Below are positions 16,000-34,697 of a DNA stretch of 64,000 nucleotides, piece by piece (within the stretch, counting starts at the first letter, position 1; each line of letters starts with the position of its first letter). The stretch comes from Chloracidobacterium thermophilum B. Its GTDB lineage: Bacteria > Acidobacteriota > Blastocatellia > Chloracidobacteriales > Chloracidobacteriaceae. Below the pieces are notes generated by a model. The model saw nothing but the letters and a program-made list of their open reading frames with translations. It had not been told where the DNA came from and did no database searches. The DNA is taken from assembly GCF_000226295.1 (NCBI RefSeq), contig NC_016024.1, positions 1,533,501-1,597,500 on the forward strand, given 5' to 3'. Position numbers and translations under genes: made by a program.

Positions 16000-16005
16000 A
16001 CCGCA

Positions 16006-16035
16006 AACGGCGCAGACAATAACGGCTCAGACAAT
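16006..16035. repeat. 15-bp tandem duplication at the rqcH stop codon
   Basis: Two adjacent units (16006-16020, 16021-16035) match at 14 of 15 bases. The second contains the rqcH stop (16027-16029, minus strand). It fills the convergent gap between the M50-like gene and rqcH. Confidence 0.8.
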
Positions 16036-17724
16036 ACGCGGTAACATTTCACGCGGCATCGCCCGAACCGTCCGACTCTCACGCACGAGCACCTGCCCTG
16101 GCGCGCCCTTGCGGGGGCGCGTCAGATGCCGTCGTTCCGCCACCCGTACGTCCACCCAGTCGTCCTGTTTGGCCTGCGAGAAATAGGCTGCCAGCTCCGC
16201 CGCCGCCAGAATGACCGCCGGTGGGACCACCTGCCGCTGCGGATTGCGGATGACGACATGCGCGCCGGGGTAATCGGCGGCGTGGAGCCACAGGTCATGC
16301 GGACGCGCCAGCTCGAAGGTGAGCCGGTCATTGTCGCGTGCGGTGCGTCCGACGACGATTTCGTACCCTTCGGGTCCCCGGTAGCGGCGCAGGCCGGACA
16401 GGTCAGCCCTTTCACGGCGCGCCCCGTTTGTCGGCGGTGGCGTGCGCGGCTGCAAATCAAACGGCACCCGGTCACGCAACTTCTGTACGCAGGTGGCCAG
16501 CACCGCTTCGTCCGCGGCCCCGGCCAGTTCCCGTTCACAGTCCAGTGCTGCCGACAGTTCGGCCTCCAGCGCGGCCCGCCGTTCGGCGTTGGCGACGAGT
16601 GTGCGTTGCGCCCGCTGGTAGCGCCGGAAGTACCGCTGGGCTGCCGCTGCGAGGTCTTCGGTGGGGGATTCAAGCGGGATCACCAGGGCCGACGGCGGCT
16701 CGGCATAGTAATCCACAACCTCCACACCCCCGGCCGTGCGCCTGGCCGTAGCGAGATTGGCGTACAGCAACTCACCCCACCGCCGGTACTGTTCCGCTTC
16801 CCCGGCCTGTGTATCGGCCACATCCAGTTTGTGCCGGGCCCGCTCAAGGCGTTTGCGCCAGGTGGTGAGGGCGTGCTGCCACTGCCGGCGTAGGGACGCC
16901 TGTGCGGCGCGGTGTTCCCGTCGGGCATAGAGCGCCGCCGCGGCCTCGTGCGCCGAAGCAAAGGTTGTCACGGGCAGCCCGGTTTCATGGCTCAACGGGA
17001 GCAGGAACACCTCCGGGCCTTCCGGTAACTCGTAGAGATAAAATGCCTGTGGATGGCACAGCTCCCGGTGGACGCGCTCAAAAGCCTCCCAGGGCGTGCC
17101 CGCTCGGGCCCGAAAGACCACTTCCCGCACCAGGCGCCGATGACAGCCACGCAGGGCATTTGACAGGAAAGCTTCCAGTTCGGCAAGCGTCTGCGGCAGG
17201 TTTTCTGGGGTCATGGCTGACCAGTCAGGGGCGGGGCCTGTGGTGGGCGGTGCGTGGTACGGCGTATTGGGAAGGCCCTCCCACGGACGCAGCGCCTCGA
17301 CCACGCGCTCTTCGGCCGTCAGCAGCCACAGGTTGGCGTAGCGTCCGGTCAGGTCATGGCGGAGATGCCAGCGGGTGGGCTGCTCCGCTTCATCAAAACC
17401 GGCAAAGGTCAGCGTTACTGAACGCTCGGCCGGGGCTTTGACAACGCCGACAAGCCGCGCACCACGCAGCGCCTTCCGCAGCCGCGCAACGAAAGGCGGC
17501 TCGCCAGACAGGTCGGACTCCTGGGGATGGCGATGCGTCAGGTAAAACCGGCTGTCGTGCGGACGCGCCGCCAGCACCAGCCAGCGCCCATCCCGGCGGC
17601 GCAGATCGAGCGTCACGACGTCCCGCCCGATGGCAGACACCTTTCCGACCGGAAGCCCGGCATCCAGACGGTCAAGCGAGTCCTGCAACTCACGCACGAG
17701 CGCTGCCAGGAAAAAGCCATCCAT
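16027..17724 (-). CDS. NFACT/RqcH-family ribosome quality-control protein
   Basis: A 565-residue protein of the NFACT (FbpA/Rqc2/RqcH) family. It binds obstructed 50S subunits carrying peptidyl-tRNA and, in bacteria, directs C-terminal alanine tailing. The N-terminal NFACT-N domain covers residues 1-250 (ARPHDSRFYLTHRHPQ; DLTGRYANLWLLTAEE). A coiled-coil middle region covers ~280-420 (RRQWQHALTTWRKRLERARHKLD). The C-terminal NFACT-R domain contains YEIVVGRTARDNDRLTFELARPHDLWLHAADYPGAHV, truncated here to the key residues. It is preceded by yajQ on the same strand. The start at 17724 lies directly after a 16-bp tandem repeat. Confidence 0.9.
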   Translation of the reverse strand: MDGFFLAALVRELQDSLDRLDAGLPVGKVSAIGRDVVTLDLRRRDGRWLVLAARPHDSRFYLTHRHPQESDLSGEPPFVARLRKALRGARLVGVVKAPAERSVTLTFAGFDEAEQPTRWHLRHDLTGRYANLWLLTAEERVVEALRPWEGLPNTPYHAPPTTGPAPDWSAMTPENLPQTLAELEAFLSNALRGCHRRLVREVVFRARAGTPWEAFERVHRELCHPQAFYLYELPEGPEVFLLPLSHETGLPVTTFASAHEAAAALYARREHRAAQASLRRQWQHALTTWRKRLERARHKLDVADTQAGEAEQYRRWGELLYANLATARRTAGGVEVVDYYAEPPSALVIPLESPTEDLAAAAQRYFRRYQRAQRTLVANAERRAALEAELSAALDCERELAGAADEAVLATCVQKLRDRVPFDLQPRTPPPTNGARRERADLSGLRRYRGPEGYEIVVGRTARDNDRLTFELARPHDLWLHAADYPGAHVVIRNPQRQVVPPAVILAAAELAAYFSQAKQDDWVDVRVAERRHLTRPRKGAPGQVLVRESRTVRAMPREMLPRIV

Positions 17725-17756
17725 GACGCATTCAGGAAACGACGCATTCAGGAAAC
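17725..17756. repeat. Perfect 16-bp tandem duplication at the rqcH start codon
   Basis: GACGCATTCAGGAAAC occurs twice in tandem (17725-17740, 17741-17756) immediately upstream of the rqcH ATG on the minus strand. It thus fills much of its leader between yajQ and rqcH. Confidence 0.9.
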
Positions 17757-17780
17757 GCCGGGGGCAGCCGGCCGCAGACC

Positions 17781-18278
17781 CTAGTTCGAGCGGTAGTTGG
17801 TAAACTGCATGTCAATCCCAAAGTCGTGGGCGCGCAGCCTGGCAATGACTTCCTGCAACACATCCCGGTCCTTGCCGCTGACACGTACCATGTCGCCATT
17901 GATGGCGGCCTGAACCTTGGCCTTGGTGTCCTTGATAAACTTGACGATTTCGCGGGCTTTTTCAGTTGGAATGCCCTGTTGCAGGGTCACGCGCTGCCGA
18001 ACGGTTCCACCGGCCGCTGGCTCGATCTTTCCATAACTCAGCGCCTTGAGCGACACATTGCGCTTGACGAGCTTGGATTCGAGAATGTCTATGACGCTTT
18101 TGAGCTTGTATTCGTCGTCCGACACCAGAACGATGTCGCGGCCTTCAAGTTCGATTCGGCTCTGACTACCTTTGAAGTCGAAGCGCTGACCGATTTCCTT
18201 CATAGCCTGGTTGATGGCATTGGTGACTTCCGCCATATCAACCTGCGAAACGATGTCGAATGAGTTGTCCTTTGCCAT
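17781..18278 (-). CDS. yajQ: YajQ-family nucleotide-binding protein
   Basis: A 165-residue protein of the YajQ family, some members of which bind cyclic di-GMP and affect transcription. Recognisable segments are the N-terminal [29 protein letters not shown] near residue 34, and the C-terminal [31 protein letters not shown]. It is full length for the family (~163 aa). It lies 56 bp upstream of rqcH on the same strand. Its 5' side is the proposed left boundary of the integrated element, so its native promoter region may be disturbed. Confidence 0.95.
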
Positions 18279-18337
18279 AAATCAGCTACCCAAAGCCAAG
18301 TTATTGAAGATAAAGCTATTTGCAGGCACACAGAAAA

Positions 18338-18349
18338 GCCTGTTCTTAC
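18338..18349. repeat. Candidate left attachment repeat
   Basis: GCCTGTTCTTAC here and GCCTGTTTTTAC at 27391-27402 match at 11 of 12 positions in direct orientation, and both are preceded by an A-run. They bracket the element exactly between host genes, but the match is short and could be chance. Confidence 0.22.
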
Positions 18350-18375
18350 CTTGAAGCTTACTTTTGGCGCCGGGG

Positions 18376-18732
18376 TCACGCGGTTTCGGCTTCGAGTGCC
18401 AGGGCTTCGGCACGGGTCAGACACCGGACGCTCCGCACATCTTCGTTCAGCACGCGCACCCGCGGGTCATTGGCGCCGAAGAAATCCTCGTAGCCGTCCA
18501 CTTCAATCACCTGCACGAACGGCGCCGTGCCGTCCCAGTCCAGCTCGTCCAGGTAGCGCAAACCGACTACCGCCTCGAAGCCGTCCACTTCCACTTCGCG
18601 CCAGCCAACCGGCACTCTGATGGTGCGCCCGCCCCACAGTTCGTAGGGCACGGTCACGTCCTCGTCGTGCCCGAAGGCTTCGGGCAGGTCAGTCGTGCAT
18701 TCGTAAACAGGCCGGTAAACCACAGTAGCCAT
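18376..18732 (-). CDS. Hypothetical protein of the integrated element, 118 aa
   Basis: An acidic small protein with no recognised domain, rich in V, D, E and aromatic residues (VPVGWREVEVDGFEAVVGLRYLDELDWDG). It has no signal peptide or membrane segment. Two consecutive ATGs occur at 18735 and 18732. GGAGG (minus strand, 18739-18743) is 6 bases from the second, so 18732 is chosen. The strong ribosome binding site argues that the gene is real. It is the last gene of the element before the yajQ side and is separated from the replication operon by the iteron block. Confidence 0.65.
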   Translation of the reverse strand: MATVVYRPVYECTTDLPEAFGHDEDVTVPYELWGGRTIRVPVGWREVEVDGFEAVVGLRYLDELDWDGTAPFVQVIEVDGYEDFFGANDPRVRVLNEDVRSVRCLTRAEALALEAETA

Positions 18733-18735
18733 CAT

Positions 18736-19305
18736 CGTCCTCCCGGCGTTTCAGGGCCGCCCGCGCCCATAGGTTGCCGCACAGACTGGCAAACGCCCGT
18801 GCCCGGCGTCAATCCGGCGTGCGGATAACAGGCTGTGACCACCGCCTGACTGCGAGTGTCCAGTTTCCGCCTGGACACAAGCCAAACCGCTGGGCACGGC
18901 TAAACCGTACACGGGCAAGGGCTTATGCGGGCTGTGTCCATGTGTCCACAAATTTCGCGCATAGGGGGGGGTATATATACGCATGATGCATGCACATCAC
19001 TGACACAATCCCTTTTCAGCATTACGCCAGACATGCCCCATTGCATCTCCCGCTTACACTGCACGCTCCGCTTGTAAGGCTATATTTCTAATTTTCTGGA
19101 TTTCTGGACACACTATATATAAACCGTTAGCAGCTAATAGTTTAGACGTGTCCAGCGGTTTGGACGCAAGCTGGACACAGTGGACATAGAGGGCAAAACA
19201 AAAACCGGCATTGCTGCCGGCTGTGGGTTTTGAGTACTTCGGGATGGGCCGGGTGGAACAGTCCGGGCCGGACTGCCTGCCCGCACTGCCTGCCTGCCGG
19301 GATTA
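18736..19305. other. Non-coding AT-rich block with GTGTCCA iterons, candidate replication origin
   Basis: No convincing gene lies in this 570-bp stretch. It contains at least eight copies of GTGTCCA/TGGACAC: 18856-18863, 18871-18878, 18934-18940, 18942-18949, 19104-19111, 19148-19155 and 19171-19178, plus a partial TGGACAT at 19181-19187. Two pairs form GTGTCCAG...CTGGACAC inverted repeats (spacers 7 and 15 bases). AT-rich tracts with TATATATA lie at 18971-18979 and 19114-19121. Repeats plus an AT-rich tract next to replication genes are typical of iteron origins in plasmids and satellites. The G8 run at 18964-18971 is also unusual. Confidence 0.55.
19194..19221 (-). terminator. Intrinsic terminator of the element's replication operon
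   Basis: On the minus strand, GCCGGC and GCCGG form a stem with a 6-base loop (AGCAAT), followed by TTTTTGTTTT. It lies 85 bp after the stop of the TerS-like gene, where an operon terminator would be expected. Confidence 0.75.
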
Positions 19306-19842
19306 TCAGAGTAGTTCGCCCGCGCCGTTTGCGCCCGGCTCCATCACCCCGTAGCTCCGTTCGATGACGATTTCCGTCTTGCCCGTGGCGTCATCCAGCC
19401 CGTGGCTGACACGCTCCATCCGTTGCAGGTTGGTCAACGTCTCGCTGGAAATCTTTGCCGCCTTGAGCGTCTCGAAGGCCAGCCGCTTGTCGTCCAGCGT
19501 CTCCGCCGCCCGGTGAGCTTCCAGCCCGCGCCAGAGCAGTTCCCGCACCTGTTCGGCTTCCGCCTGATGACGCCGGATAACGTCCGCCGCCAGTTCCGCC
19601 GCCGTGTCAATCGCCGCCGCCCTTTTTTCCGGGTCGGTGATGGCTGTGCCGGTGACTTGCGCCATGGCTTTGCGCCGCACCATTTCCGCCGCGTCCGTCC
19701 CATCGCCCCAGCCTTCGGCTTTGGCGCGCCGGACAATGGCTGCCTTGTCAATGCCGTACCGGGATGCCAGCAGCCCGAAGCTCAATCCGGCTTCCCGTTC
19801 CGCACGAATCTGCGCCCATGTGTCACGCGATAGTCTTGGCAT
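19306..19842 (-). CDS. HTH protein resembling phage terminase small subunits
   Basis: A 178-residue protein. The N-terminus carries a helix-turn-helix (SRDTWAQIRAEREAG, then LLASRYGIDKAAIVRRAKAEGW, residues 5-45) of the kind found in terminase small subunits (TerS), which recognise packaging sites on phage DNA. It continues as a long charged helical region (AAELAADVIRRHQAEAEQVRELLWRG, residues 82-150) suited to oligomerisation. No large terminase subunit is in the element, as in satellites that redirect a helper phage's packaging motor. GAGG lies 9 bases before the ATG. The TerS assignment is inferred from domain order and context; a general DNA-binding regulator is the alternative. Confidence 0.55.
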   Translation of the reverse strand: MPRLSRDTWAQIRAEREAGLSFGLLASRYGIDKAAIVRRAKAEGWGDGTDAAEMVRRKAMAQVTGTAITDPEKRAAAIDTAAELAADVIRRHQAEAEQVRELLWRGLEAHRAAETLDDKRLAFETLKAAKISSETLTNLQRMERVSHGLDDATGKTEIVIERSYGVMEPGANGAGELL

Positions 19843-19864
19843 AGCTTGTTACCTCGTCAGTCGG

Positions 19865-20992
19865 TTATGCCACAGCGCACGGCTGTGCGCCGTCTGTAAT
19901 CGTCTCTGGCGCGTTCTGCGCCGGGATTGTGTGGGTTGGGTTGTCCAGCAGCGCCAGAATCTCGATAAAGGCTTCCAGCTTCGAGACGGCCATAGGCAGG
20001 CTTTCACGCGCTTCCTGTTCGAGCTTGTCCAGGTAGCCAAGCAGCCACGCACTGGCTGTGCTTCGGCGCGCTTCCTGCAATCGCCACTGGAAGGCGGTTT
20101 CGGGGCTGCCGGTGACGAACACGGCTGCCAGCCACAGCCACGTCGGGCTGGTACGTGCGTCAATATAGCCCTCCATCCCTTCGCCTGCTCCCGGCGGGTT
20201 GCTGACGGCTTTGCGCGCCAGCTTCGCCAGGTAGCAGCGTGCGACAGGTTCCGTCTCTGCCCTGAAAGCGGCTTCGATGCGTTCGAGTATCGCCTTCCGC
20301 CCCCCGGTGTCCCCCCGTACCAGCCGCTTGCCGTCCGGGTCAACGGCAACGTCGTTCAGCGCCCAACTCATGTGCAGCGCCGCCAGCCGGTTCAGGAAGT
20401 CTCCGGGAGTGCCGGGTTGCAGGTAGGCTTCGAGTTCCTGACGCACAGACTCCACCGGGTACTTGTGGATGTCCCGGCGTAGCTGTTCGAGAAACAGCCG
20501 TAGTGCCGGGTCGGTTTCCATTGCCAGGCAGCCGTCAATCTGCGCCTGCAACCGCGCCACGTCGTCCGCTTGGCTGTCCGCTTTGCCGGGCTGTGTACTT
20601 TGCCCTGTAGTGCCTTTGGACGCATTCTGTGGCGCGTCTGAAGGTAAAGTGTCAACCGCCGGTTCAGCGCGCGTCTGTGCCTGTCTGAATGCGCCCGAAG
20701 TATTCGTCCGGGTTGGGCTGGCGGGCTGGCGGGCGTGTGCCGGGGTTGACGGTGACGTGCCGGACGCCTTGCGCAGCAGGTTGGCAACGCTTCCTTCCAC
20801 GTCCGGCTCGAACGGCTCGAAGCGTGACTTCGCCGCCGGTGACGATTCACCCGCCGGGAGTGCGCCGGCATCCACTTCGCCGGACTGTGTACTTTGCCCT
20901 GTAATGCCGCCAGACGCATTCTGCGTTGCGGGTGTGCGGGTTGGGTCATCCCGAAAGAAATCAAACAGAATGCCTGTGCCAATGACTTTCAT
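19865..20992 (-). CDS. Unknown element protein with internal duplication, 375 aa
   Basis: No recognised family. The first ~140 residues are low-complexity (P, S, T, A, G, Q) and contain two near copies of QNASxGxTGQSTQ (residues ~25-36 and ~121-133), with a degenerate third near the C-terminus. Residues ~145-340 are predicted helical (DVARLQAQIDGCLAMETDPALRLFLEQLRRDIHKYP; EPVARCYLAKLARKAVSNPPG). The start codon overlaps the stop of the primase-helicase gene (ATGA, 20989-20992), so the two are translationally coupled. This suggests a replication-accessory or packaging role, but none can be shown. Confidence 0.7.
   Translation of the reverse strand: MKVIGTGILFDFFRDDPTRTPATQNASGGITGQSTQSGEVDAGALPAGESSPAAKSRFEPFEPDVEGSVANLLRKASGTSPSTPAHARQPASPTRTNTSGAFRQAQTRAEPAVDTLPSDAPQNASKGTTGQSTQPGKADSQADDVARLQAQIDGCLAMETDPALRLFLEQLRRDIHKYPVESVRQELEAYLQPGTPGDFLNRLAALHMSWALNDVAVDPDGKRLVRGDTGGRKAILERIEAAFRAETEPVARCYLAKLARKAVSNPPGAGEGMEGYIDARTSPTWLWLAAVFVTGSPETAFQWRLQEARRSTASAWLLGYLDKLEQEARESLPMAVSKLEAFIEILALLDNPTHTIPAQNAPETITDGAQPCAVA
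20591..20923. repeat. Two copies of a ~39-bp segment inside the 375-aa gene
   Basis: CTGTGTACTTTGCCCTGTA occurs at 20591-20609 and 20885-20903. Each copy is followed by TGCC, four variable bases and GACGCATTCTG. The copies are 294 bp apart, in frame, and produce the repeated peptide in the encoded protein. Confidence 0.85.
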
Positions 20993-23900
20993 TCGTCACC
21001 TCCCAGCTTTTCCAGCGCTTCATCCAGCGCCTTGTCTGGTATGCAGAAAAGACGCTTGTATCCCTTCACCAGGCGTACGGTCACGGTATCCCGCCCGCCG
21101 CTTGTTTTCAGCACATTCAAGTCTGCCAGCGTCTTTCTGGCGAGTTTGAAGTCAAATCCACGCACCGCGTCCTTGAAGCCTTCGGGAGTGAACAGGTATT
21201 CCCGCCCGTCATCTGTATCGCGGTAGTAACCGGCCCGGTCATGTACGACTACATCCTTAGTGCATTCGCTGAACTTCGAGTCGCCGTACTTGTCAATGAA
21301 GTCGCGCATCCGGCGCAGTATGTCCACCTGCTCGAAGTCGGTTCCGGCAGCCCGTCTCCGGGCCCACAGCCGGTAGCAGTAACGCGCCGCGTCAAATGCC
21401 GTCCCCCGCTGCCAGCCGGTAATGCCATACCGGGTTGCCAGTTCGCCGGCCAAAGCCACCAGCGCCATTGAAGTCAGCACGCGGCTGGCTTGTGCGCCTA
21501 CCGGCACGCCGTCGCTTTCAACCGCCCTGCGCAGACGGGCAACGCACTCGCTTAGTTCCGAGTCCAGCCCGTTCATATCATCGCAAACAAGCCGTTCCAG
21601 AAACGCCCGCAAAGGCGTGCCGTAGTACCGACGGACAGCCTGGCGCAAGGTATCAGCAAGGGTTTCGCCCGACTTGTAGCCGTGGAGTTCCGTGAACGCG
21701 CCGTACCGTTCTTCCGCCGGGATTTCAATAAACCGCACAACCTGCCCGGCGTTGACGCTGCGTTTGTCCTTGTCCATCGCCAGCAGCGTTTCCAGCGTCT
21801 TTTCGCCGGTCGAAAGCGCCGCCACCCGCCAGCGTTGCGTTGGCGCCGCCCCTACGCCGTGCTTGTACACCGTGGCGCGTTGCTTGGCTGCGCCATTCGC
21901 CAGTGTGTAAATCGCGCCATCCAGCACATCCGGCTTCACCTGCCCGATTTCGTCCAGCGCCAGGAAGCCATCACAGTACGTTAGCGCCTTCTGCTCCAGC
22001 CCGTTATCTGTAGCCCGCCAGGTTGCTACCAGCTCCGGCGGCCCGACAACGGAGTTTGCCGCTAGCAGGCAGGTCGTCTTGCCGGTCGTACTCCGCCCGA
22101 CAAGCTGTGCCAGTACGGAGTTATGATCGGTCAGCTTGAGTAACGGCCCGGCAAAAGCCAGAGAGATTGAGAACACCAGCAAGGGGTTCCCTGTAGCCAA
22201 CGCCGCAACCGACTTCTGCCAATCCGCAAGCTCGCCACTCGTCAGAGGTTCATTTGTCGCCCGCTTGCCCGTGAACAGGATGGTGACGCCCTTCCCTATG
22301 GTGACATCCGGGAAAACGTACTGCTGCTTGTGCCAGCCGGTACGCTCTGTGGTGTATTCCCACTGGGGTGAGGATTGTTGCAGGTATTCCTCAAGCCGTG
22401 CCCTGGCGCTCTTGCTGTGGGTCTCCAGTGTGGCGCCTTCGTCCAACAGAGTTTTACGATATTCCAGTGAAGCCAGTTCCTTGCGGGGTAGCACTACATC
22501 ACGCCAGCCGCTTCCGTCATAAACATCCAGCCTTACGCCTTGGGCACCGTCAGGCCACTCGATGGTTCGCGCCTTCCGCCGGATCGGGCTACACAGCCAG
22601 GTTTCCGTCGGCACCGGCACGACTTTCCCAAACTGTTTTTCGTGTTCGATGCCACAGTGATAGACGCCTGCCTTGTATTCCTGTTCGCCGATGACCGCCG
22701 GCTCTTCGAGCAGCCAGTAGCACGGGCGTTCGTCCAGTCCGGGCCGGACGGGTTGCGACAGGATGCTCTCGACATCAACCTGCCGGCGCACAGCGTCCAG
22801 ACCTTCCGCCCGCGCCAGGTCGTTGAAGTCGGTGTCCTTTTCGCCGCGTTCCCCTGACCAGGGCGGAACGACAACCACCGCCCCGACAGAGCAGGCTGCC
22901 TTTTCGGCTTTGGTGACCCCGGGGTTGCCGGCGGTTTTCCAGTCGTCATCGGCGCAGATGACCAGCTTTTGCCCTGGGAACTTCTCCCGCAGGGCGCGCG
23001 CCGCCGGCAGCAGGTTGCCGCAATTCATCGCCGCCGCAACCGGTAACCCGGTAGCCTCGTGCAGCGTTGCGCCCGTTGCCCATCCCTCGCAGACAAGGAT
23101 AGCCTTGCCGCGCTCAAAATCCTCGCGCGTGCCGAACGGATGAAACAGCCCGGAGACGCGCCCGCCCTTGAGAAACCGCTTTCCGCCGTCCGGCTGGATA
23201 AGCTGAAGGTTCCATATTTGCCACTCGGCATCGCGTAGCGGAACGAACAGTACGTCGGAGAGTCCGCCCCATCCGGTGCGCGCACTGTGGGGCTGAACGT
23301 TTTTGCGTTGCAGGTAGGGGTTGTCGGTGGTAGCAGCCCTTGACCGCCGCCACAGACGCTCCGCCTTGCCCTTTGCTACCAGGTGCCTTGCCTGTTCTTC
23401 CCGTTGCTGCGCCTCCCTGATCTGGCGTAGTTCCCGGTCGAAAGCTTCCTTCTCCCCGGACGTGGACGGTTCCCGGGAGTGCCATTCGTGGTGCTCACCG
23501 GTACGCCAGTCGCCAAACTCGATGAAGTACGATTCCTTCCCCCTCCCGTACTTCACCCGCGTGACACGGGCCCACCCGGATAGACTACTTCCGGTCGTCT
23601 TGAAGCGAATCGGGGTTTTCCCTGTCTCGTACAGCTTCTCCGGGGCGCCGCCCAGCGTTTCACGGATAAGGTGCAGCGCGAAGCCTAGCGGGTCTTCGTG
23701 ACTCCACGGCACAGATTTTTTATCCGGCTTGCTGTCCGGCGCGGCTGTGTCCGCCGCCTTGCCGGAGTCGTCTGGCGCGGCTTTCCGGGGCGCCTTGCCG
23801 GTGCGCTTGCTAGTGTGTTCTGGCGTGGCTTTCCGGGGTGATTTGCCGGCGCGCTTGCCGGTGTGTTTTGGCGCGGCTTTTTTAGCCGGCTTGCCAGGCT

Positions 23901-24177
23901 TTTCCGGCGCAGGGTTTTCCGGCGGCAGTCCTGCCGGTGCGGTTACCGGGGCTTTCGGGGCGCGCCCGCTTTTCCGCGCCCTGCCGGTTTCTGTCTTGCG
24001 CGGCCCGTCGTGGCGCAGCAGTTCCGTCGTGGGCGCCCCGTTGAGACTGGACGCTCCCGCCCGCGCCACACGCCGTCCGCGCGTCTTTTTCCGCGGCCCG
24101 TCATCCGGCAAAGGCCCTGCCTGAACGGGTTGGGGTTGTCCGTGCAGAGAATCCTGTGTAGTATTCAACTCAAACAT
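20989..24177 (-). CDS. Toprim and DUF927 primase-helicase
   Basis: A 1062-residue replication protein. Residues ~1-150 are Lys/Ala/Pro-rich with 16-residue repeats. A primase-like toprim domain follows (CEGWATGAT near residue 362; ADDD near 409). The C-terminal half is a DUF927 helicase with Walker A GRSTTGKT near residue 690 and Walker B FLALDEIG near 736. Such proteins prime and unwind DNA in plasmids, phages and satellites. The open frame extends to 24252. ATG 24177 is chosen because GGAGG lies 5-6 bases upstream, although MEEK at 24189 is possible. It sits 81 bp after the RepA-like gene and overlaps the next gene by 4 bp. Confidence 0.85.
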   Translation of the reverse strand: MFELNTTQDSLHGQPQPVQAGPLPDDGPRKKTRGRRVARAGASSLNGAPTTELLRHDGPRKTETGRARKSGRAPKAPVTAPAGLPPENPAPEKPGKPAKKAAPKHTGKRAGKSPRKATPEHTSKRTGKAPRKAAPDDSGKAADTAAPDSKPDKKSVPWSHEDPLGFALHLIRETLGGAPEKLYETGKTPIRFKTTGSSLSGWARVTRVKYGRGKESYFIEFGDWRTGEHHEWHSREPSTSGEKEAFDRELRQIREAQQREEQARHLVAKGKAERLWRRSRAATTDNPYLQRKNVQPHSARTGWGGLSDVLFVPLRDAEWQIWNLQLIQPDGGKRFLKGGRVSGLFHPFGTREDFERGKAILVCEGWATGATLHEATGLPVAAAMNCGNLLPAARALREKFPGQKLVICADDDWKTAGNPGVTKAEKAACSVGAVVVVPPWSGERGEKDTDFNDLARAEGLDAVRRQVDVESILSQPVRPGLDERPCYWLLEEPAVIGEQEYKAGVYHCGIEHEKQFGKVVPVPTETWLCSPIRRKARTIEWPDGAQGVRLDVYDGSGWRDVVLPRKELASLEYRKTLLDEGATLETHSKSARARLEEYLQQSSPQWEYTTERTGWHKQQYVFPDVTIGKGVTILFTGKRATNEPLTSGELADWQKSVAALATGNPLLVFSISLAFAGPLLKLTDHNSVLAQLVGRSTTGKTTCLLAANSVVGPPELVATWRATDNGLEQKALTYCDGFLALDEIGQVKPDVLDGAIYTLANGAAKQRATVYKHGVGAAPTQRWRVAALSTGEKTLETLLAMDKDKRSVNAGQVVRFIEIPAEERYGAFTELHGYKSGETLADTLRQAVRRYYGTPLRAFLERLVCDDMNGLDSELSECVARLRRAVESDGVPVGAQASRVLTSMALVALAGELATRYGITGWQRGTAFDAARYCYRLWARRRAAGTDFEQVDILRRMRDFIDKYGDSKFSECTKDVVVHDRAGYYRDTDDGREYLFTPEGFKDAVRGFDFKLARKTLADLNVLKTSGGRDTVTVRLVKGYKRLFCIPDKALDEALEKLGGDE
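23774..23869. repeat. 48-bp tandem repeat coding a 16-residue basic repeat
   Basis: Two 48-bp units (23774-23821, 23822-23869) and the start of a third encode the KAxPxHTxKRxGKxPRK-type repeats in the N-terminal tail of the primase-helicase. The composition resembles histone H1 or AlgP-type DNA-binding tails. Confidence 0.8.
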
Positions 24178-24258
24178 TTTTTCCTCCATTAGCGGCCCGA
24201 TACGGCGCGTATCCGTACCGGGCTGTAACTTTTGGTCACTGATTTCGCGCAATCCCGT

Positions 24259-25128
24259 TCAGAAGGGTGGCGGTTCGTTTATCGCCTTGCCGGACTCGTC
24301 GCACTCCACCAGTACCGGCACTGTGGTGGGAGCGTTACCGTCCCACCACTCCGGTGGGAGCAGGGTTTTGTGAATGATGAAGTGGCGCGCGGCTGGCGGC
24401 TCGAAGTCCTTGGCCTTGGTGCAGGCAAACGTCCGCACCCTGTTCTGCTTCACTTCAAGCTGGTAAATCACGTCCATCGCCGCCGGCAGCGATGAGTAGC
24501 CGCGCGCGCGCCCCTTATCGCTGTGACCGGAGTGATGGACAATCAGCACGGTGCAGCCATAGCGAAGGCGCATCGCGTCGCACGCGGTCAGGAAGCCGCC
24601 CATACCGCCGGCACTGTTCTCATCGCCGGTAAAGCAGCGCGCCAAGGTGTCAATAACCACCAGCAGCGGCTTCCCGTACCGGATGGCAACCGCGTCAATG
24701 CCCTCGATAACCGCGCCTACGCTGTCGGGCAGTCCGGCAATGCACTCTGAAAAGAGCAGCGGCACATCGGGAGACGATTCCTGTCCGTTCACCCTTTCCC
24801 ACGCGGCCAGCCGCCGGGCCAGCCCCCGGTAGCCTTCGCCCGCCAGGTAGATTGCCGTCCCCCGCCGGGTCTGGCGTCCGCACCAGGCGCGTCCGGTTGC
24901 GACAGACGCGGCCCAGTCCAGCGCCAGCAGCGACTTTCCGGCTGCCGGTTCGCCGAACAGAAGGGCGAGCGTATTGGCTTCGAGAAAACCTTGAATCAGC
25001 CAATCGTGCGACAGCGGGTTGCGCCGCAGCTCGAAAGCCGATGTCATCCTGAATCTCCGGCCGCGCCCTGACGCATTGTTCAGCGCCGGTTCCAGTTGAC
25101 CGTTCGTGCAGTTAGATTTAGCTTCCAT
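24259..25128 (-). CDS. RepA-like AAA/RecA-fold ATPase
   Basis: A 289-residue ATPase of the RecA-fold AAA_25/RepA type, typically a hexameric replicative helicase or its loader in plasmids and satellites. Walker A GEPAAGKS is near residue 56, Walker B LLVVIDTLAR near residue 152, and the sensor-like segment VLIVHHSGHSDKGRARGYS near residue 198. The N-terminal ~35 residues lack homology. A downstream ATG (MTSAFELRRNPL, residue 28) is possible, but AAGG lies upstream of the ATG at 25128. It precedes the primase-helicase and probably works with it at the iteron block. Confidence 0.83.
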   Translation of the reverse strand: MEAKSNCTNGQLEPALNNASGRGRRFRMTSAFELRRNPLSHDWLIQGFLEANTLALLFGEPAAGKSLLALDWAASVATGRAWCGRQTRRGTAIYLAGEGYRGLARRLAAWERVNGQESSPDVPLLFSECIAGLPDSVGAVIEGIDAVAIRYGKPLLVVIDTLARCFTGDENSAGGMGGFLTACDAMRLRYGCTVLIVHHSGHSDKGRARGYSSLPAAMDVIYQLEVKQNRVRTFACTKAKDFEPPAARHFIIHKTLLPPEWWDGNAPTTVPVLVECDESGKAINEPPPF

Positions 25129-25199
25129 ATAAGCCTTTTTCCTTTCCCGGCCCGGTCACAGTCTCCCTCTGTGCCGGGTCGAAACTTTTAGGAACCCAC

Positions 25200-25418
25200 C
25201 TAAGCTGACGTGGCGTTATCGCCAGCATTACGTGAACGCGCATCCAGCCATTTCAGCACGTCACTTCTGCGCCAGCCGACAACGCGCGGCCCCAGTTGAA
25301 TCCGCTTTGGGAAAAGCCCTTTCTTTTCCCATTTGTAGATTGACGCCCGGCACACACGCACCAGCGCCACCACGTCAGAACAACGTAAAACCCGGTCGGT
25401 TTCTTCGATTGCCCTCAT
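25200..25418 (-). CDS. alpA: AlpA-family HTH regulator / excisionase
   Basis: A 72-residue MerR-fold protein of the AlpA/excisionase group. The winged HTH is visible: VLRCSDVVALVRVCRASIYKWEKKGLFPKRIQLGPRVVGWRRSDVLKWL, given here only as a residue range (9-57). In P4-like satellites AlpA activates the integrase or excision and early genes. It is the first gene after the operator/promoter at 25509-25565, and the RepA-like gene starts 71 bp downstream on the same strand, so it leads the replication operon. Confidence 0.85.
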   Translation of the reverse strand: MRAIEETDRVLRCSDVVALVRVCRASIYKWEKKGLFPKRIQLGPRVVGWRRSDVLKWLDARSRNAGDNATSA

Positions 25419-25508
25419 TCCGCAGCACCCCTACGAATAGTGTCTGTGTAAACGCCACCGCCAAGTGCTTGCGCTTGGTGCGCGGCTTTACACGCTCATA
25501 GTCAAGCA

Positions 25509-25538
25509 TATATAACGCGACCTGTCAAAGCGCGTCAA
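25509..25538 (-). promoter_or_regulatory. Predicted promoter of the alpA-replication operon
   Basis: On the minus strand, TTGACG (25533-25538) and TATATA (25509-25514) are 18 bp apart, about 90 bp before the alpA start. The -35 box lies within the inverted repeat at 25532-25565. Confidence 0.5.
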
Positions 25539-25565
25539 TGAGCGCGTTAATACCGGTATTGACGC
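25532..25565. promoter_or_regulatory. Palindromic operator overlapping the element's early promoter
   Basis: GCGTCAAT (25532-25539) and ATTGACGC (25558-25565) form an 8-bp inverted repeat. Inside it is a perfect 12-bp palindrome AATACCGGTATT (25549-25560). The left arm covers the predicted -35 box, so a bound repressor would block the replication operon. No separate repressor gene is obvious; AlpA or a helper-phage product could be the ligand. Confidence 0.55.
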
Positions 25566-25588
25566 ACACTTTTTGCTTTTTCGGGCAC

Positions 25589-25616
25589 GGAAAAGCACCG
25601 CACGACGGCGGTGCTT
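25589..25616 (-). terminator. Terminator after the frameshifted element gene
   Basis: Minus strand: AAGCACCGC and GCGGTGCTT form a 9-bp stem with a 6-base loop (25593-25616), followed by TTTTCC. It lies 25 bp beyond the -1 frame stop at 25642, matching the end of the integrase transcript. In the 0 frame the ORF would read through it. Confidence 0.6.
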
Positions 25617-25641
25617 CGAGTGTGTCATCGCTCTGATAGGA

Positions 25642-26051
25642 TTATGTGTTTTCTGCCCCCTGCAGGTATCGGCGAATCGTCGCCTCGGAGGGCTTTTCCC
25701 CCGAAAAAAAGTTTCAAACTTTTTTACCAGATGTTTGCGTAATGACCTTTTTGATGTGCGCTTATGCGCCTGTAGCTCTCTGGCTTTCGCTCTGACTTTC
25801 TCTACGGGTTCGTCCCGCCCTTCCCATCGCTTCTGGATGGCAGTGCGGCCGCGCGCCGTAACGGTTCCCTTTGCGAGCTTTTCCGGCAGGCTGGACGGGT
25901 CGGCTTCCCGAAGGGCATCCCGCAATTCCCGATAGACGACAGCCAGTTCCGGCTTTCTTTTCTCCCAGAAGCCGATTGCCCTGGTAAGTCCGCTGTCTAT
26001 TTCCCGGTGGGCTTCAGCAATCTCACGGAAGTTTTCGAGAAAGGCTGCCAG
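25642..26051 (-). CDS. Small element protein requiring -1 frameshift (CTG start)
   Basis: Unknown protein, ~136 residues, helical and charged (FREIAEAHREIDSGLTRAIG; RTAIQKRWEGRDEPVEKVRA). The frame opens right after a TGA at 26052-26054 and has no ATG or GTG; the first codon CTG (26051-26049) has AGGA 9 bases upstream, 20 bp beyond the integrase stop. In the 0 frame it runs past the terminator to 25488 with an implausible basic tail. A -1 shift at T_TTT_TTT (25710-25704) instead gives SGEKPSEATIRRYLQGAENT and a TAA at 25642, before the terminator. The shifted end looks like a genuine HTH-type helix. It may be programmed frameshifting, polymerase slippage, a one-base mutation or a sequencing error. 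Confidence 0.55.
25704..25726 (-). promoter_or_regulatory. Slippery heptamers and poly-A/T palindrome at the frameshift site
   Basis: In the 0 frame of the minus strand, A_AAA_AAG (25725-25719) is followed by T_TTT_TTT (25710-25704). Both fit the X_XXY_YYZ pattern. Bases 25705-25725 form a perfect 10-bp inverted repeat with a single central base. A shift at the first heptamer would stop at once (GTT TGA), while a shift at the second gives the sensible C-terminus. Confidence 0.5.
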
Positions 26052-26071
26052 TCAGTGACTTCCTGCTGGTT

Positions 26072-27298
26072 TTATTGCCCATGGCTCCCCCCGGCAGCAG
26101 CGGCAAGGCGCTGTGTCGCGTGACCAGTGACGAAAGCCGCCCAAGCGTCCATCAGCTCCCTGCGCCGGGCAAACAGGTCGGAGCGTTGGTAGGCGGCTTC
26201 CGTGGCGTTGGTATTGGTGTGCGCCAGCGCCGCTTCCGCCACACTCGAAGCGTAGCCGTGTTCTTCCGCCCAGACGCGGAAGCTGGAACGGAAGCCGTGA
26301 ACGGTTGCACCCGGCGCAACGGTACGGAGCAGCTTCAGAAGCGTGGCTCCGCTCATGGTTCCTTTGGGCGCGCCGGGAAAGATCAGGCTGTCACTGCTCC
26401 ACGGCTGGACGGACATAAGCAGGTCAACGGCTACGGGAGAAAGCGGGATTTTGTGCGTGCGCCCGTTTTTCATCCGTTGCGCCGGGATTGTCCAAACCGC
26501 GTCGTTCAGGTCTATTTCCTGCCAGCTTGCGCCGCGCGCCTCATTCGAGCGTACGGCGGTAAGGATAATGAATTGCAGGCAGAGTGACGGTATCCCCGGT
26601 TTTTCACTCAGACAGGAGTACAGCGCCGGCACTTCCTTCCAGTCAGCAGCGGCAAAATGCACGACTGGACGAACCTTACGGGGTGACGGGAGCGCCAGTT
26701 CGAGTTTACCCTTCCACTGCGCCGGGTTGTCGCCTTTCTGCCGGAGTCCAATGACCGCCGCGTAGTCCAGTACAGCGGCAATCCGGTCCCTGACGTACTG
26801 CGCCGTTGATGGTTTCGTCGTCCATATCGGCTTCAGCACTGCCAGTACGTCGTTGGTTGTGACTTCGGCAGGCGCTTTATTCCCCAGCACCGGGAAGGCG
26901 TAGTCCCGGAGCGTCTGCGTCCATTGCCGTACTTTGTTTTTGGTTTTCCAGCCAGGGCGCTTGCTTTCGATAAGTTCCAGGGCGCACTCGGAGAAGGTTT
27001 TGTTTTTGCGCCGCCGCCGCTGGAGCAGTTCGTCGGGGGACTGCCCGTGAAACAGTGCCTTGCGCAATTCCGCCGCCACCTGGCGCGCTTCAGCAAGGCT
27101 GCGCACGTCCACAGCGCCGAGTCCACGCTCGAAAACCTTGCCGTCGCGTGCCCAGCGGAAAACCCACGATTTCGAGACGCGCCCGTTACGCGCCTGCACC
27201 CGCAGGTAAAGATTACCCCCGTCGGCGTAGGTTCCGGGTTTCCTGATAGTCTCAACCCGCCGCGCACTCAACCGCGCACTCAACCGCTGCCTGCCCAT
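26072..27298 (-). CDS. int: P4-type tyrosine site-specific integrase
   Basis: A 408-residue integrase. The N-terminal DUF4102 arm-binding domain covers residues 1-90 (GTYADGGNLYLRVQ; SWVFRWARDGKVFERGLG). A core-binding domain follows (~95-195), then the catalytic domain with R in LTAVRSNEARG near residue 252, HGFRSSFR near 335, a further H in LAHTNTNATEAAY, and the nucleophile tyrosine near 370. All catalytic residues are present. It integrates and excises the element. It lies at the end next to gltB, reads inward, and its upstream 250 bp hold candidate arm sites. The small frameshifted gene follows 20 bp after its stop. Confidence 0.95.
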   Translation of the reverse strand: MGRQRLSARLSARRVETIRKPGTYADGGNLYLRVQARNGRVSKSWVFRWARDGKVFERGLGAVDVRSLAEARQVAAELRKALFHGQSPDELLQRRRRKNKTFSECALELIESKRPGWKTKNKVRQWTQTLRDYAFPVLGNKAPAEVTTNDVLAVLKPIWTTKPSTAQYVRDRIAAVLDYAAVIGLRQKGDNPAQWKGKLELALPSPRKVRPVVHFAAADWKEVPALYSCLSEKPGIPSLCLQFIILTAVRSNEARGASWQEIDLNDAVWTIPAQRMKNGRTHKIPLSPVAVDLLMSVQPWSSDSLIFPGAPKGTMSGATLLKLLRTVAPGATVHGFRSSFRVWAEEHGYASSVAEAALAHTNTNATEAAYQRSDLFARRRELMDAWAAFVTGHATQRLAAAAGGSHGQ

Positions 27299-27549
27299 CG
27301 CCGCCCTCTGTTCCTGCTATGGTTCTTACTTTCAGTCATAGACTGCCATAGCTTTCAGTAGGCGGCAATAGACAGTGCATTGCGCAAAACGCCTGTTTTT
27401 ACAAGGCTTCTGTGGACAGTCTTGGACGGTAGTAGTCACCCGGAGCGACTTTTGCCATAGGTCATCACTGGGGCTTGGCACGCAGCCAGGAATGGGTGTC
27501 ACCCGGCCATGTTCATCCATAGCCGGGGCGACGGTGCAGGACACAGAAC
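27299..27549. promoter_or_regulatory. Integrase upstream region with candidate arm-type sites and right attachment repeat
   Basis: Four copies of CCATAG/CTATGG lie at 27317-27322 (inverted), 27346-27351, 27455-27460 and 27517-27522, and TTTCAGT occurs twice around 27330-27358. GCCTGTTTTTAC at 27391-27402 is the candidate right attachment repeat. No gene is seen. The region presumably contains the integrase promoter and recombination arm sites. Confidence 0.3.
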
Positions 27550-30500
27550 TTACGCTTCCTGCCGGCGGGGAAGATAGGCCACGAAGCGCGTGGAATGGGT
27601 TTCCCATCCTTCCAGCAGGTCCTGCACGGCGCGGCTTTCCGTTTCTACCATGAAATCCACAAGCAGCGCGTGCAGGGCCGTCAGTTCCTCCGGGGACAGG
27701 GCGGCCGCTTCCAGAAATGCCCGGTTGACGTGCGCCTCCGGCGCCCCGCCATAGACGTAGATTTTGCCGCCGGTCATGCCGGCGCCCAGATTTTTCGACG
27801 TTGGCCCCAGAATGACGACCAGCCCGCCCGTCATGTACTCACAGGCGTGCAGGCCCACGCCGTGCACGACGGCCGTGGCTCCGCTGTTGCGTACGGCAAA
27901 CCGGTCGCCGGCGAAACCGGCGACGTACAGCGTCCCGCCGGTTGCCCCGTACAGTGCCGCATTGCCAATAATGGCATTCGTTTCAACGTCGCTGCGCAGG
28001 GAGTCCCGCCAGCGCGGATGGGGACGGATGACAATTTTCCCGCCGCTCATCCCCTTGCCCACGGAATCGTTGGCTTCACCCTGCAAACCCAGACGCAGGC
28101 CATCAGTCAGAAACACCCCAAAGCCCTGTCCGGCGCTGCCGGTAAAGCGCAGCGTGATGGGCGGCGGCGGAAACACCCGTTGGGGAGCCGACGCGGACGG
28201 ACCTTCAGCCACCGGAAACTGCCGTGCATGCGCCTCTGCGGCCAGCCAGCCCGCCAGCGTAGCCGGTACGGCGCGGTCGCGGGTCGTGATCGGGTAGTCG
28301 AAAGCAGACACCGGCGGAGATGCGCCCAACCCGGCGCGCACGTCATCAAGAATCCGCTGGTTGAGTGCCCCCACCTGAAACGGCGCACGTGGTACAGGCA
28401 GCGGCAATGGCAGCGGGGGCGTCAGGAAAAAGGACAGGTCCAGGCGGCGCTCTGCCACGCGGTCAACATGACGCGGGTGCGGCATGAGAAGGTCAGTCCG
28501 CCCGACAGCCGCATTCAACGTCGGAATTCCGGCGCGGGACAGCCATTGACGCGCGTCATCGGCAATAGCCTCGAACAGGCGCACCACATGTTCGGGCTGA
28601 CCCGTGTATTTGGCCTTGCGCCGTGGGTCATGGGTGGCAATTCCAGCCGGGCACTGGTTGGTCTCGCAGATGCGCGCCATGATGCACCCCTGGGCGACCA
28701 GCGCCAGCTTGCCGAAATCAAATTCCTCAGCCCCCAGAATCGCCGCCAGGACGACATCCAGCCCGCTGGACAACCCCCCGTCCACCCGCAGGGTCACAGC
28801 TCCGCGCAATCCTTCTTCACAGAGCGCGCGATGGACTTCAACAAGTCCGATTTCCCACGGCAACCCGGCATGGGCCATGGAAATGAGTCCGGCTGCGCCT
28901 GTTCCGCCATCGCCGCCCGCAATGTGAATGATGTCGGCCCCGGCCTTGGCCACGCCCACGGCAATCGTGCCGATGTTGTTTCCGGCAACGAGCTTGACGC
29001 TGACCCGCGCGCCCGGATGCAGGTTTTTGAGTTCCTCGATGAGTTGTTTGAGGTCTTCGATGCTGTAGATGTCATGCATCGGCGGCGGCGAAATCAAATC
29101 TATGCCGGGCGTGGCGTACCGCGCCCGGGCAATTTCGGGCGTGACCTTGTGCCGCATCAGTTGGCCGCCTTCGCCGGGCTTGGCCCCCTGGGCCATTTTG
29201 ATCTGGATTTCGCGCCCCGTTACCAGGTAGCGCGCGGTCACACCAAACCGCGCCGAACCAATCTGTTTGGTGCTGGCCGTCAGGCCAGCCGTGAAGTAGT
29301 AGGGATTCTCTCCCCCTTCCCCACTGTTGCTGCGCCCACCAAGCTGCTGCATCGCCAGAATCAAGTCGCGCTGCGACTCAGCGCTGATGGCGCCGAAGGA
29401 CATTCCGCCCGTGCCGAACGTCCGCACGATTTCCTGCCGGGACTGAACCTGCTCCAGGGGGAGTGGCGCGCCGACGGAACGAATCGTAAGCAGATGCCGT
29501 GGACTCACCGGCTCGTGATGGGTCCCGGAAGCCAGGTAGGCAGCATACCGCTCCGGCGAGGGATCACGGACGAAAGCATGCACCAGCCGCGCCCGCGCCG
29601 TTGTCATGGCGTGCTGCTCGCCCTGCCGGCCCTGAGTGTCTTCCTTGAACCGGAAGTGGCGCGGCAGCACGCGCCAATCCAGCGTTTCCGCCGCTGTACA
29701 CCAATCGGCATGCTGGGCAAGCTGCTGACGGGCGAGGTCCTCCAGTTCGAGGCCGCCCAGGCGGCTGTCCTTGCCCGGAAAGAACTCCGCGAGCAGCCGC
29801 GCCCCCAGCCCGACCGGGGTAAAAAGCTGGGCATTCTGATAGCTGGCCAAAACAGAAATGCCCATCTTGGCCATGATTTTGAGCACGCCACCGGTCAAAG
29901 CCTGAATAAGCTGCTGTTCCCGCCGGTCAGCGTCGAGGTCGTCCAGTTTGGGATGCTGACCAAAGCGCGCCCAGTCGAGCGCCACACAGGGACACACCGC
30001 TGCCGCTCCAAAGCCAATCAGCGCAGCGACGTGGTGCGCCGTGCGAACCTCGCCCGTCTCAATGACCAGGGACGTATCGAGCAACATCCCGGCTTCGTTG
30101 AGGCCGTTGACGATGGCGCGCAACGCCAGCAGGCTCGGTATTGGAACCCGCTGCGGACTGATGCCCCGGTCGCTGACGATGAGCACCGAAGCGCCATGCT
30201 CGGTCAGGTTCAAGGCCTGCCGCTGGAGTTCGGCCAGCGCCGTTCGCAGCCCCTCCACGCCATCCGACCGGGCAAAGGTAGCGTCCAGCTCGGCAATGTG
30301 TACGCCCAGCCGGGTCGTCCCCAGCCCTGTCCGCAGTGCCGCCATCCCGGAAAGCGAAAGTACGGGACCGGAAAGCTCGATGGCGGGCGGCGGCGGCACC
30401 AGCGTCTTGGGCGCAAAGATGTTGGGCTTGGCGCCAAGGTGAACCGTCGTGTTCATCACCAGAGCTTCTCGCAGGTAGTCCACCGGCGGATTCGTCACCT

Positions 30501-31998: not shown

Positions 31999-32142
31999 GC
32001 CTGCGCTAGCAGGTCACGGCAGCCGTTTTGGGGGACACCTGCCCATGATAGCCGCAAAACCAACAGTTTCACGGGCCCTCCACGGGCCGCTCAAGGCACC
32101 GGCCCTGCGGCAGGGTTCTGCACCTTGTGAGCCGCAGCAACC

Positions 32143-34460: not shown

Positions 34461-34697
34461 GACGGACGTTCCAGAACAAGTTGCCGTTTGAATGGGGTGC
34501 CTTTGGCTACCTTAGCATTGTGTCGCAGACGATGAAACCCGCCCGGACTCGATGACCGGGCACGATGCCTGATCTCCGGGAGTTACCCGGCTGGCAGCCG
34601 GATGCAAATTGTTGCTGACATGGAGCCGCGGCAAGGCTTACTTTTCCGGTCAACCTGCCGTGCTCTCCATCCCGTATCGGTTTGAAGTCTGACCGCC

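Follow-up and report, generated by a model that had tools for sequence, protein, structure and literature searches.

Background

The satellite P4 is characterised by a P4-type integrase, an AlpA/Vis-like regulator, a primase-helicase and a repeat block, together with the Sid, Psu and Delta functions. The element considered here, element A, lies in a window of 64,000 nucleotides of the phototrophic acidobacterium Chloracidobacterium thermophilum B, i.e. positions 1533501-1597500 of contig 1 of its genome (G000; two contigs, 3,695,372 bases). In all likelihood element A belongs to the phage satellites, of the general type seen in P4 and the phage-inducible chromosomal islands (PICIs), and the phage lineage that we identify as its candidate helper appears to counter it with a mini-array built from repeats of the host. 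Probably, these minimal arrays of the host type I repeat are aimed at satellites that exploit the phage terminase, and would work by borrowing the Cas proteins of the host.

As far as the excerpts of the cited papers go, the closest described systems are the following. Gram-negative PICIs carry an integrase, a replication module and a master regulator in a conserved order, lack structural and lytic genes, and typically measure 12-15 kb; the criteria for membership include a unique att site that is never occupied by prophages, phage-dependent induction and specific packaging, while some members carry terS, the gene for the small terminase subunit (TerS), and the helper of one of them, PmCI172, was reported to be a Mu-like phage (Fillol-Salom 2018, PMC6092414). 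The phage-inducible chromosomal minimalist islands (PICMIs) consist of an integrase, AlpA and a DUF3987/DUF5906 primase and are found beside fis (PMC10803314). The Vibrio phage ICP1 carries a complete type I-F system of clustered regularly interspaced short palindromic repeats (CRISPR) and Cas proteins, which is unrelated to that of its host and attacks the satellite PLE (PMC6452262, PMC11656645). Finally, virus-borne mini-arrays have been described that hold one or two spacers between host-like repeats, with host-like leaders and with no cas effector genes seen; they are directed at related viruses, except for one spacer with an integrated pRN1-like plasmid as its target (Medvedeva 2019, PMC6858448).

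The string 'Acidobacteri' is absent from the main text of PMC6092414, as is the word 'satellite' from the main texts of PMC6858448 and PMC11656645. Among the papers listed by searches of the openly licensed literature we found neither a phage satellite in Acidobacteria nor any mini-array described as directed against a phage satellite.

Results and discussion

Element A and its insertion site

In the closest relative of the source genome, G001, the segments that correspond to positions 15712-18279 and 27451-40000 of the window are joined with an overlap of nine bases, TTTGCCATA, and this junction comparison shows element A to be bounded by a 9-bp repeat of that sequence (Table 1). In the five remaining genomes of the genus comparison set (G000 and six others), the matches to the two flanks lie only 113-224 bp apart; the site is empty in all six other genomes. 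Around positions 18270-18280 the sequence directly upstream of yajQ has been replaced by the element, and yajQ is now separated from gltB.

The proteins were compared to protein families (ten to Pfam, i.e. nine from element A plus YajQ, and nine to PHROGs), and the recognised genes, all on one strand with the integrase first, encode a tyrosine integrase, an AlpA-type regulator, a RepA-type ATPase, a Toprim-DUF927 primase-helicase and TerS. Among the proteins that were sent to Pfam and PHROGs there was no match to families of capsid, tail, portal, relaxase or partition proteins, nor was a coupling gene recognised in these searches; when PADLOC and a further family search are included, there is still no recognised structural or lytic gene. 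The sole match to a defence family, a weak one of JetA1 to TerS (0.0013), was taken as chance.

A first-pass annotation, made by a model from the letters of the window and a list of its open reading frames (ORFs), had proposed a satellite with this very gene list and without capsid, tail, portal, conjugation or partition genes. The profile searches bear out every entry of the list, and recognised none of the genes said to be lacking. It had also suggested looking for an empty site in related genomes, which the joined flanks in G001 provide; the span that it gave, 18338-27402, lies within the element and is slightly short at both ends (18271-27459 by the G001 junction).

TerS and its phage relatives

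Judged by its homologues, the TerS of element A is a genuine terminase small subunit, the relatives of which sit with the large subunit (TerL) in phages. TerL is present in 33 of the 34 TerS-bearing loci (the exception being L014), although 17 of these, the TerS-bearing ones among 32 loci newly found via TerL, were reached through TerL and are hence not independent. Among the loci that were found via TerS, TerL stands beside TerS in 4/5 from genome_contigs (L014 being the one without), in 9/9 from viral_contigs (three of which, L042, L043 and L044, repeat L010, L011 and L012) and in 3/5 from the search of the phylum (a count that excludes G000 and G001, the weak matches L034 and L035 not being among those tested). 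As the TerL panel itself contained proteins of L031, L032 and L040, these were checked apart, and together with L033, where both subunits are encoded on the minus strand by overlapping genes, they match terminase large subunit families. The loci from Albidovulum and Tepidimonas combine TerS relatives with TerL, a Mu-type portal, and Mu F-like and head genes.

A TerS profile compared to solved structures found no terminase, the best match being a short one to LrpA at 0.0025. The TerS-like assignment of the first-pass annotation, which had named membership of an unrelated regulator family as a counter-indication, holds by virtue of the phrog_1206 match and the TerL-linked homologues in phages. 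In an unrooted tree (without L032, L033, L042-L044 and identical rows) the TerS proteins of element A and of two sister elements, B and C (see below), form one group (100/100) among the phage proteins.

Two of the loci have peculiarities of their own. The TerS relative in L014 (1431-3416, from an Albidovulum metagenome-assembled genome) has no TerL in the 10 kb beyond it, and is followed by a gene for a Mor-type late activator (phrog_836) and a tRNA-Ser; possibly, this locus is a satellite in Alphaproteobacteria. In L031 (2170-3447, genome G068) the TerL beside a distantly related TerS seems, by eye, to be interrupted past Walker A by an intein-like start.

Host spacers lead to a candidate helper

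No prophage of the helper type was found in the seven genus genomes with Terminase_6C, and the excerpted part of a published survey lists none for Chloracidobacterium thermophilum B (PMC5900883); therefore, the CRISPR memory of the hosts was used to seek the helper. Only arrays in the vicinity of a cas1 match were used as a source; 11 such arrays, spread over five genomes, supplied 673 spacers, G002 and G005 contributing none. One G000 spacer reads APTLTDMRGEAW in translation, a motif of this TerL family, and one G001 spacer reads RLELISGGTID, another TerL motif. The initial matches of the host spacers, to distant phages, were imperfect, at best 30/38 end to end, and served as a lead: a wobble pattern derived from the G000 TerL spacer retrieved two viral contigs, of which L212 matches that spacer 38/38, and the TerL of the spacer-matched contig as a query retrieved 12 contigs (L213-L224) from ten metagenome datasets, which we take to be of hot-spring mats. 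In 20 rounds with shuffled spacers nothing equalled the first TerL spacer against phages, or three G001 spacers against elements B and C, while the second TerL spacer (31.7 bits) stayed within chance.

The link between these contigs and the host is extensive. With a score of at least 36 bits 88 of the 673 spacers match the 12 contigs (G000 39/147, G001 45/141, G003 2/169, G006 2/212, G004 0/4), as compared to none in each of ten shuffled rounds. Six of the contigs encode a nearly full-length TerS that is 57-59% identical to that of the satellite, and L214 holds only the end of one; TerL follows TerS directly in L220 and L221, and 1.6-2.0 kb further on in the other four. L222, of which 20.4 of the 31.0 kb were seen (10 proteins run on Pfam and 9 on PHROGs), has genes for a portal, a major head and a major tail protein as well. 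Other parts of element A have relatives there as well: two genes upstream of terS in L221 (3143-3409) lies a homologue of orf119 (35% identity, 2e-8), the ATPase has homologues at 28-29% identity, and a translated stretch of L220 matches a small helix-turn-helix (HTH) protein of element B at 77% over 56 residues. In a second unrooted tree, from which L031 and L014 were left out too, the TerS proteins of the satellites and of the L213-L224 phages are sisters (94/86). We consider this Chloracidobacterium phage lineage the most likely helper, so that, where the first-pass annotation had looked to a prophage in the genome for the implied helper, the genome has yielded none in two weak tests and the host spacers have yielded a candidate phage.

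Mini-arrays in the phage match genes of the satellites

A comparison of the satellites to the phage contigs brought up short matches of some 37-41 bp in an intergenic region of the phage, and these turned out to be spacers. In three contigs, L218, L222 and L223, this region holds a mini-array of three repeats of host array II (two of them exact, 36/36, the first with four mismatches) with two spacers in between. The 31-nt core of the repeat occurs in seven of the 224 loci examined, namely four loci with host arrays and these three contigs. The surroundings of the mini-arrays are 91-93% identical across the three contigs, and the spacers differ.

Five of the six spacers match satellite genes, i.e. 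int, primase, orf375 and terS. The two of L218 are directed at the primase gene and orf375 (Table 1). L222_s1 and L223_s1, which is a variant of it, have their matches in the integrase genes of elements B and C when a gap is allowed, and L222_s2 matches best in the terS of element B (32/34), and at 29/34 in that of A and C. By way of control, 30 kb of host DNA gave no match better than 25/37, and 180 shuffled spacers stayed at or below 68% identity.

For each of the four distinct matching spacers the best target is preceded by ATG (in the gapped reading for the int spacers), and ATG is likewise the commonest flank of those protospacers in the phage that belong to host array II, being found before 13/22 for G000 and 13/38 for G001; for the 60 array II protospacers with a strong match and enough flank, the single positions were A in 43, T in 44 and G in 52. 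The terS of the phage itself has ATG at the same place, but mismatches L222_s2 at positions 6, 9, 10 and 11, among others, whereas the terS genes of A, B and C match its first 20 positions.

The genes beside host array II encode Cas3, Cas8a1/Cmx1 ('I-MYXAN'), Cas7/DevR and Cas5/DevS. The repeat used by the phage belongs to this DevR/DevS-type (I-MYXAN) system (L136:7968-13611, L137:935-8078), and G000 has 99 exact copies of it. No cas effector gene accompanies the mini-array among the L222 proteins searched, apart from a Cas4-domain exonuclease (phrog_1990; L222:1883-2731), which lies about 3 kb from it. In L217, L220 and L221 exact strings did not recover the flanks of the mini-array, and the gene order near terS is different there.

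Objections and alternative explanations

Several observations weigh against the reading of element A as a satellite that is countered by its own helper. Terminase_6C had no match in the seven genus genomes (0/7), a weak test because the L222 TerL itself has no Terminase_6C match and falls just under the cut-off of Terminase_6N; a TerL profile matched 43 of 396 genomes of the phylum, all distantly and none of them G000, G001 or G006, and from this we draw no conclusion on the helper. The identity between the TerS of satellite and candidate helper is only moderate, the support for their being sisters lies under the starred level, and the N-terminal part of the satellite protein is closer to that of L038 (41/50) and L172 (40/50) than to that of the helper (25-28/50). 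As for the mini-arrays, L223_s2 has no match, a 1-nt indel separates the spacers directed at int from their target, the target in the terS of element A lacks the ATG (its flank being ACA), and a leader like that of the host was not found beside the array; moreover, the three G001 host spacers that resemble the primase of B and C have the flanks ACG, GTG or GGT, and TCA. At a more general level, a mini-array shows conflict more directly than help, and a mere competitor could have one.

The phage of L213-L224 might be a competitor that is harmed in its replication by the satellite without supplying its capsids, the true helper being another phage of the same TerS-TerL family, as the moderate TerS identity and the 50 N-terminal residues that are nearer to L038 and L172 would have it. 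We think this unlikely: L213-L224 is the only lineage found that is tied to the host by many spacers, its TerS is the sister of that of the satellites and, in the C-terminal part, the closest of those compared (45/67 vs 41/67 and 38/67), and the homologues of orf119 and the ATPase, plus the 77% HTH stretch, are common to phage and satellites. A C-terminal part near the helper and an N-terminal part near other phages fits a TerL interface that is common to both and a DNA target that differs, which is only suggestive.

A second alternative concerns the arrays rather than the phage. The repeats could be RNA anti-CRISPR decoys against the host Cas proteins, with spacers that were taken up incidentally by the host Cas1-Cas2 during co-infection. 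With 39 of the 147 G000 spacers directed at it the phage needs protection, and the degenerate first repeat and the leader that was not found would suit a decoy. Nevertheless, this explanation is rather improbable, given that five out of six spacers match satellites whereas none exceeds 25/37 in the host control, that ATG precedes the best target of four distinct spacers while the phage's own terS has seed mismatches, and that related contigs carry different spacers at one and the same locus, in surroundings that are 91-93% identical. Decoy and anti-satellite functions could also be present together.

Table 1. Positions of element A with its genes and spacer targets, of the sister elements and of the phage mini-arrays (numbers without contig or locus name refer to the window)
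Feature	Position	Strand	Remarks
Satellite element A	18271-27459	-	about 9,180 bp; recognised genes all on minus strand, integrase first
att core copy TTTGCCATA	18271-18279	.	covers yajQ start codon (yajQ 17781-18278)
orf119, 119 aa	18376-18735	-	distant homologue two genes upstream of terS in L221
Non-coding block	18736-19305	.	GTGTCCA/TGGACAC in 7 copies; putative origin of replication, or packaging region
TerS, 178 aa	19306-19842	-	phrog_1206 'terminase small subunit' 4e-11; no Pfam match
Weaker L222_s2 target in terS	19412-19445	+	29/34, 5' flank ACA
orf375	19865-20992	-	no family match; homologues in elements B and C
L218_s2 target in orf375	20482-20518	-	35/37, 5' ATG; homologue in C likewise 35/37
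Toprim-DUF927 primase-helicase, 1087 aa as called	20989-24252	-	Toprim_3 2e-11, DUF927 5e-57
L218_s1 target in primase gene	21738-21774	-	36/37, 5' ATG
RepA-type AAA_25 ATPase, 289 aa	24259-25128	-	PF13481 3e-40
AlpA-type regulator/excisionase, 72 aa	25200-25418	-	PF05930 4e-15; phrog_2790 6e-12
Doubtful 145-aa ORF between alpA and int	25488-25925	-	perhaps not a gene; Pfam, PHROGs and PADLOC without a match
Tyrosine integrase, 408 aa	26072-27298	-	Pfam Arm-DNA-bind_3, Phage_int_M, Phage_integrase; PHROG match
att core copy TTTGCCATA	27451-27459	.	integrase side, adjoins gltB
Element B	G000 contig 1, about 442,436-453,440		about 10.96 kb by repeat positions
Element C	G001 contig 2, about 72.1-80.5 kb		about 8.37 kb by repeat positions
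Mini-arrays	L218:3075-3256, L222:5941-6119, L223:175-355		three datasets

Sister elements, selection and repeat blocks

Element A has two relatives at other sites, which, going by their genes, are mosaics of it. Element B, also in G000, has a different integrase, a small HTH_17-like protein (under the Pfam cut-off, phrog_66 excisionase at 9e-7), an ATPase that is 89% identical to that of A, a Toprim-DUF927 protein, orf289, TerS (77%) and orf119. Its ends are 50-bp repeats, with three mismatches, of the 3' part of a tRNA-Met, and it is absent from G001, where a different insert of 3 kb with two long ORFs lies at the same tRNA between repeats of the tRNA end (L197:5528-8520, G001 contig 1, about 423.5-426.5 kb), marking this tRNA-Met as an integration hotspot. 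Element C, in G001, combines a B-like integrase with a DUF3987 primase, orf500 and TerS (93%), and is flanked by two perfect 48-bp copies of the 3' end of a tRNA-Phe; in G000 its empty site can be made out only in part, the left flank being rearranged and about 100 bp beside the tRNA being common to both genomes. In each of the three elements, which occupy different sites and are spread over two genomes, terS is present and no terL was recognised.

Between A and B two patches of DNA, of 743 bp (98.9%, at the ATPase gene) and 455 bp (99.1%, at orf119), stand out from the remaining matching pieces, which are 74-88% identical, so that A and B have probably exchanged DNA recently. The ratios of nonsynonymous to synonymous substitution rates (dN/dS) lie at 0.39-0.48 in TerS and at 0.39 in the primase, and the integrase, compared between B and C, has a value of 0.20; constraint is weaker on orf375 (0.62-0.70) and orf318 (0.88); by this measure the TerS of the three elements is under purifying selection.

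These data bear on a third explanation, namely that we are dealing with decayed prophages that have lost their structural genes and have kept the integrase, the replication genes and terS by chance. Although phage homologues exist for TerS, for orf119, for the ATPase and, in element B, for the HTH protein, we hold this to be very improbable, as it would have to account for one architecture, with terS and without recognised terL, at three sites in two genomes, for dN/dS values of TerS, primase and integrase well below 1 (orf318, at 0.88, is different), for the recent exchange between A and B, and for a phage that carries spacers against the elements. Least probable of all is an integrative plasmid or island with another route of transfer and a terS that was merely captured: Toprim-DUF927 proteins are often plasmid-borne, with matches in 4370 of 72,556 plasmid records, and a plasmid of 6.4 kb that has a RepM gene ranks first among these, but the family searches recognised no relaxase, coupling or partition gene, TerS is kept as one clade in all three elements, and other high-ranked primase matches fall in records with the order int-HTH/AlpA-Toprim-DUF927, two of them with a phage capsid gene.

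The non-coding blocks downstream of terS in A and B contain clusters of short words. In element A, the block holds 7 of the 13 copies of GTGTCCA/TGGACAC in the whole 64 kb, and none of 500 dinucleotide shuffles held any 7-mer as often, which puts the iteron-like block of the first-pass annotation above chance. The block of element B has a different word, GGAACAA, in 13 copies (0/500 shuffles as high), and no word cluster was found in the 241 bp tested for element C (101/500 shuffles as high). Different words that go with different primases fit an origin that is read by the primase, or else the block may have a role in packaging; a packaging motif common to satellite and phages was not found, with only the two iteron words having been tried.

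As to the individual proteins of element A, the true start of the primase-helicase may be an ATG downstream of the one called, and its helicase part matches the solved 'pathogenicity island protein' 8tch (4.7e-11) and an SCCmec helicase model. Searched against viral_contigs, the primase matched 73 loci, nearly all in the Toprim part only, which were used solely as spacer targets, and the ATPase and orf119 gave no useful lead; neither did TerS and orf119 against annotated phages or orf119 against plasmids. For orf375 no family was found in Pfam, PHROGs, PADLOC or a further family search, nor a relative in viral_contigs. Elsewhere in the window, a selenocysteine tRNA gene lies at its edge (63825-63919).

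A proposed cycle

The above suggests the following cycle. When the helper phage infects a cell that carries element A, AlpA, the putative master regulator, would allow excision by the integrase between the TTTGCCATA copies at yajQ, upon which the RepA-type ATPase and the Toprim-DUF927 primase-helicase would replicate the resulting circle, with the iteron block as origin. Next, the TerS of the satellite would take over the TerL of the helper, and thereby direct satellite DNA into helper capsids, and these particles would carry it to new cells. The phage, in turn, would produce CRISPR RNAs from its mini-array that load the type I Cas proteins of the host and cut the satellite, with the seed mismatches sparing its own terS. 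A spacer content that differs between phage variants at one locus is what would be expected of such a three-way arms race. On the whole, the findings favour the satellite with a TerS that implies a helper, as the first-pass annotation had it: the searches turned up neither structural or conjugation genes in the element nor kinship of TerS with an unrelated regulator, either of which it had named as speaking against a satellite.

The proposed mechanism is directly testable in that every matching spacer names a target, a flank and an expected outcome. Moreover, the route that leads from a satellite TerS via a host spacer to a candidate helper and on to an anti-satellite array is open to use on other uncultured systems, and has here, from sequence alone, placed phage satellites, together with their sister elements, insertion sites and candidate helper, in a lineage for which we found no published ones.

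Comparison with known systems

The first-pass annotation had likened the element to P4 and PICI satellites, which is right as a description of its way of working, whereas formal membership of either family is not established. With PICIs, element A has in common the order int - AlpA - AAA_25 - Toprim/DUF927, a specific att site, terS, and the structural and lytic genes that are not recognised. It differs from them in size, with about 9.18, 10.96 and 8.37 kb for A, B and C as compared to typically 12-15 kb, and in its replication genes, which are those of a Toprim-DUF927 protein and an AAA_25 ATPase. With respect to the att criterion, the site is defined and is empty in the six other genomes of the genus, a small set. 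The P4-type integrase, the AlpA regulator, the primase-helicase and the repeat block are shared with P4-like satellites; unlike these, element A carries TerS, and family searches recognised no Sid, Psu or Delta, very diverged forms aside.

Three filings of the element were rejected: as P4-like, since no Sid, Psu or Delta family is among the matches; as capsid-forming PICI (cf-PICI), since the Pfam and PHROG searches recognised no capsid genes of its own; and as PICMI, since its primase is of the DUF927 type and its site is yajQ, although element C does have DUF3987. The order int - HTH/excisionase - Toprim - DUF927 recurs in pHS87b and vB_Pae_U10, which encode a phage capsid protein where element A does not, and the primase of which is about 34% identical. 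A Pseudomonas 'phage' record of 10.2 kb (L152, PP003922.1) and a 'plasmid' record of 11.2 kb (L154, NZ_KR106191.1) both hold int, HTH/excisionase, Toprim, DUF927 and a capsid gene, that of L154 being of the P2 family and accompanied by an Ogr/Delta gene; probably, these are satellites that were filed under other names.

The mini-arrays of L218, L222 and L223 resemble the known virus-borne ones in having two spacers, repeats identical to those of the host and spacers against competing mobile elements, and differ from them in that the targets are integrated phage satellites and a host-like leader was not found. With ICP1 and PLE, the phage shares CRISPR spacers that are directed at its own satellite; other than in ICP1, only two spacers in host repeats are seen, for which the Cas proteins of the host would be needed. 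The system thus joins two themes that are known separately and that we have not found combined, i.e. phage CRISPR directed against satellites and host-repeat mini-arrays that borrow the host Cas proteins, and, if the reading is true, a phage of a phototrophic acidobacterium uses the Cas proteins of its host to kill its own parasite.

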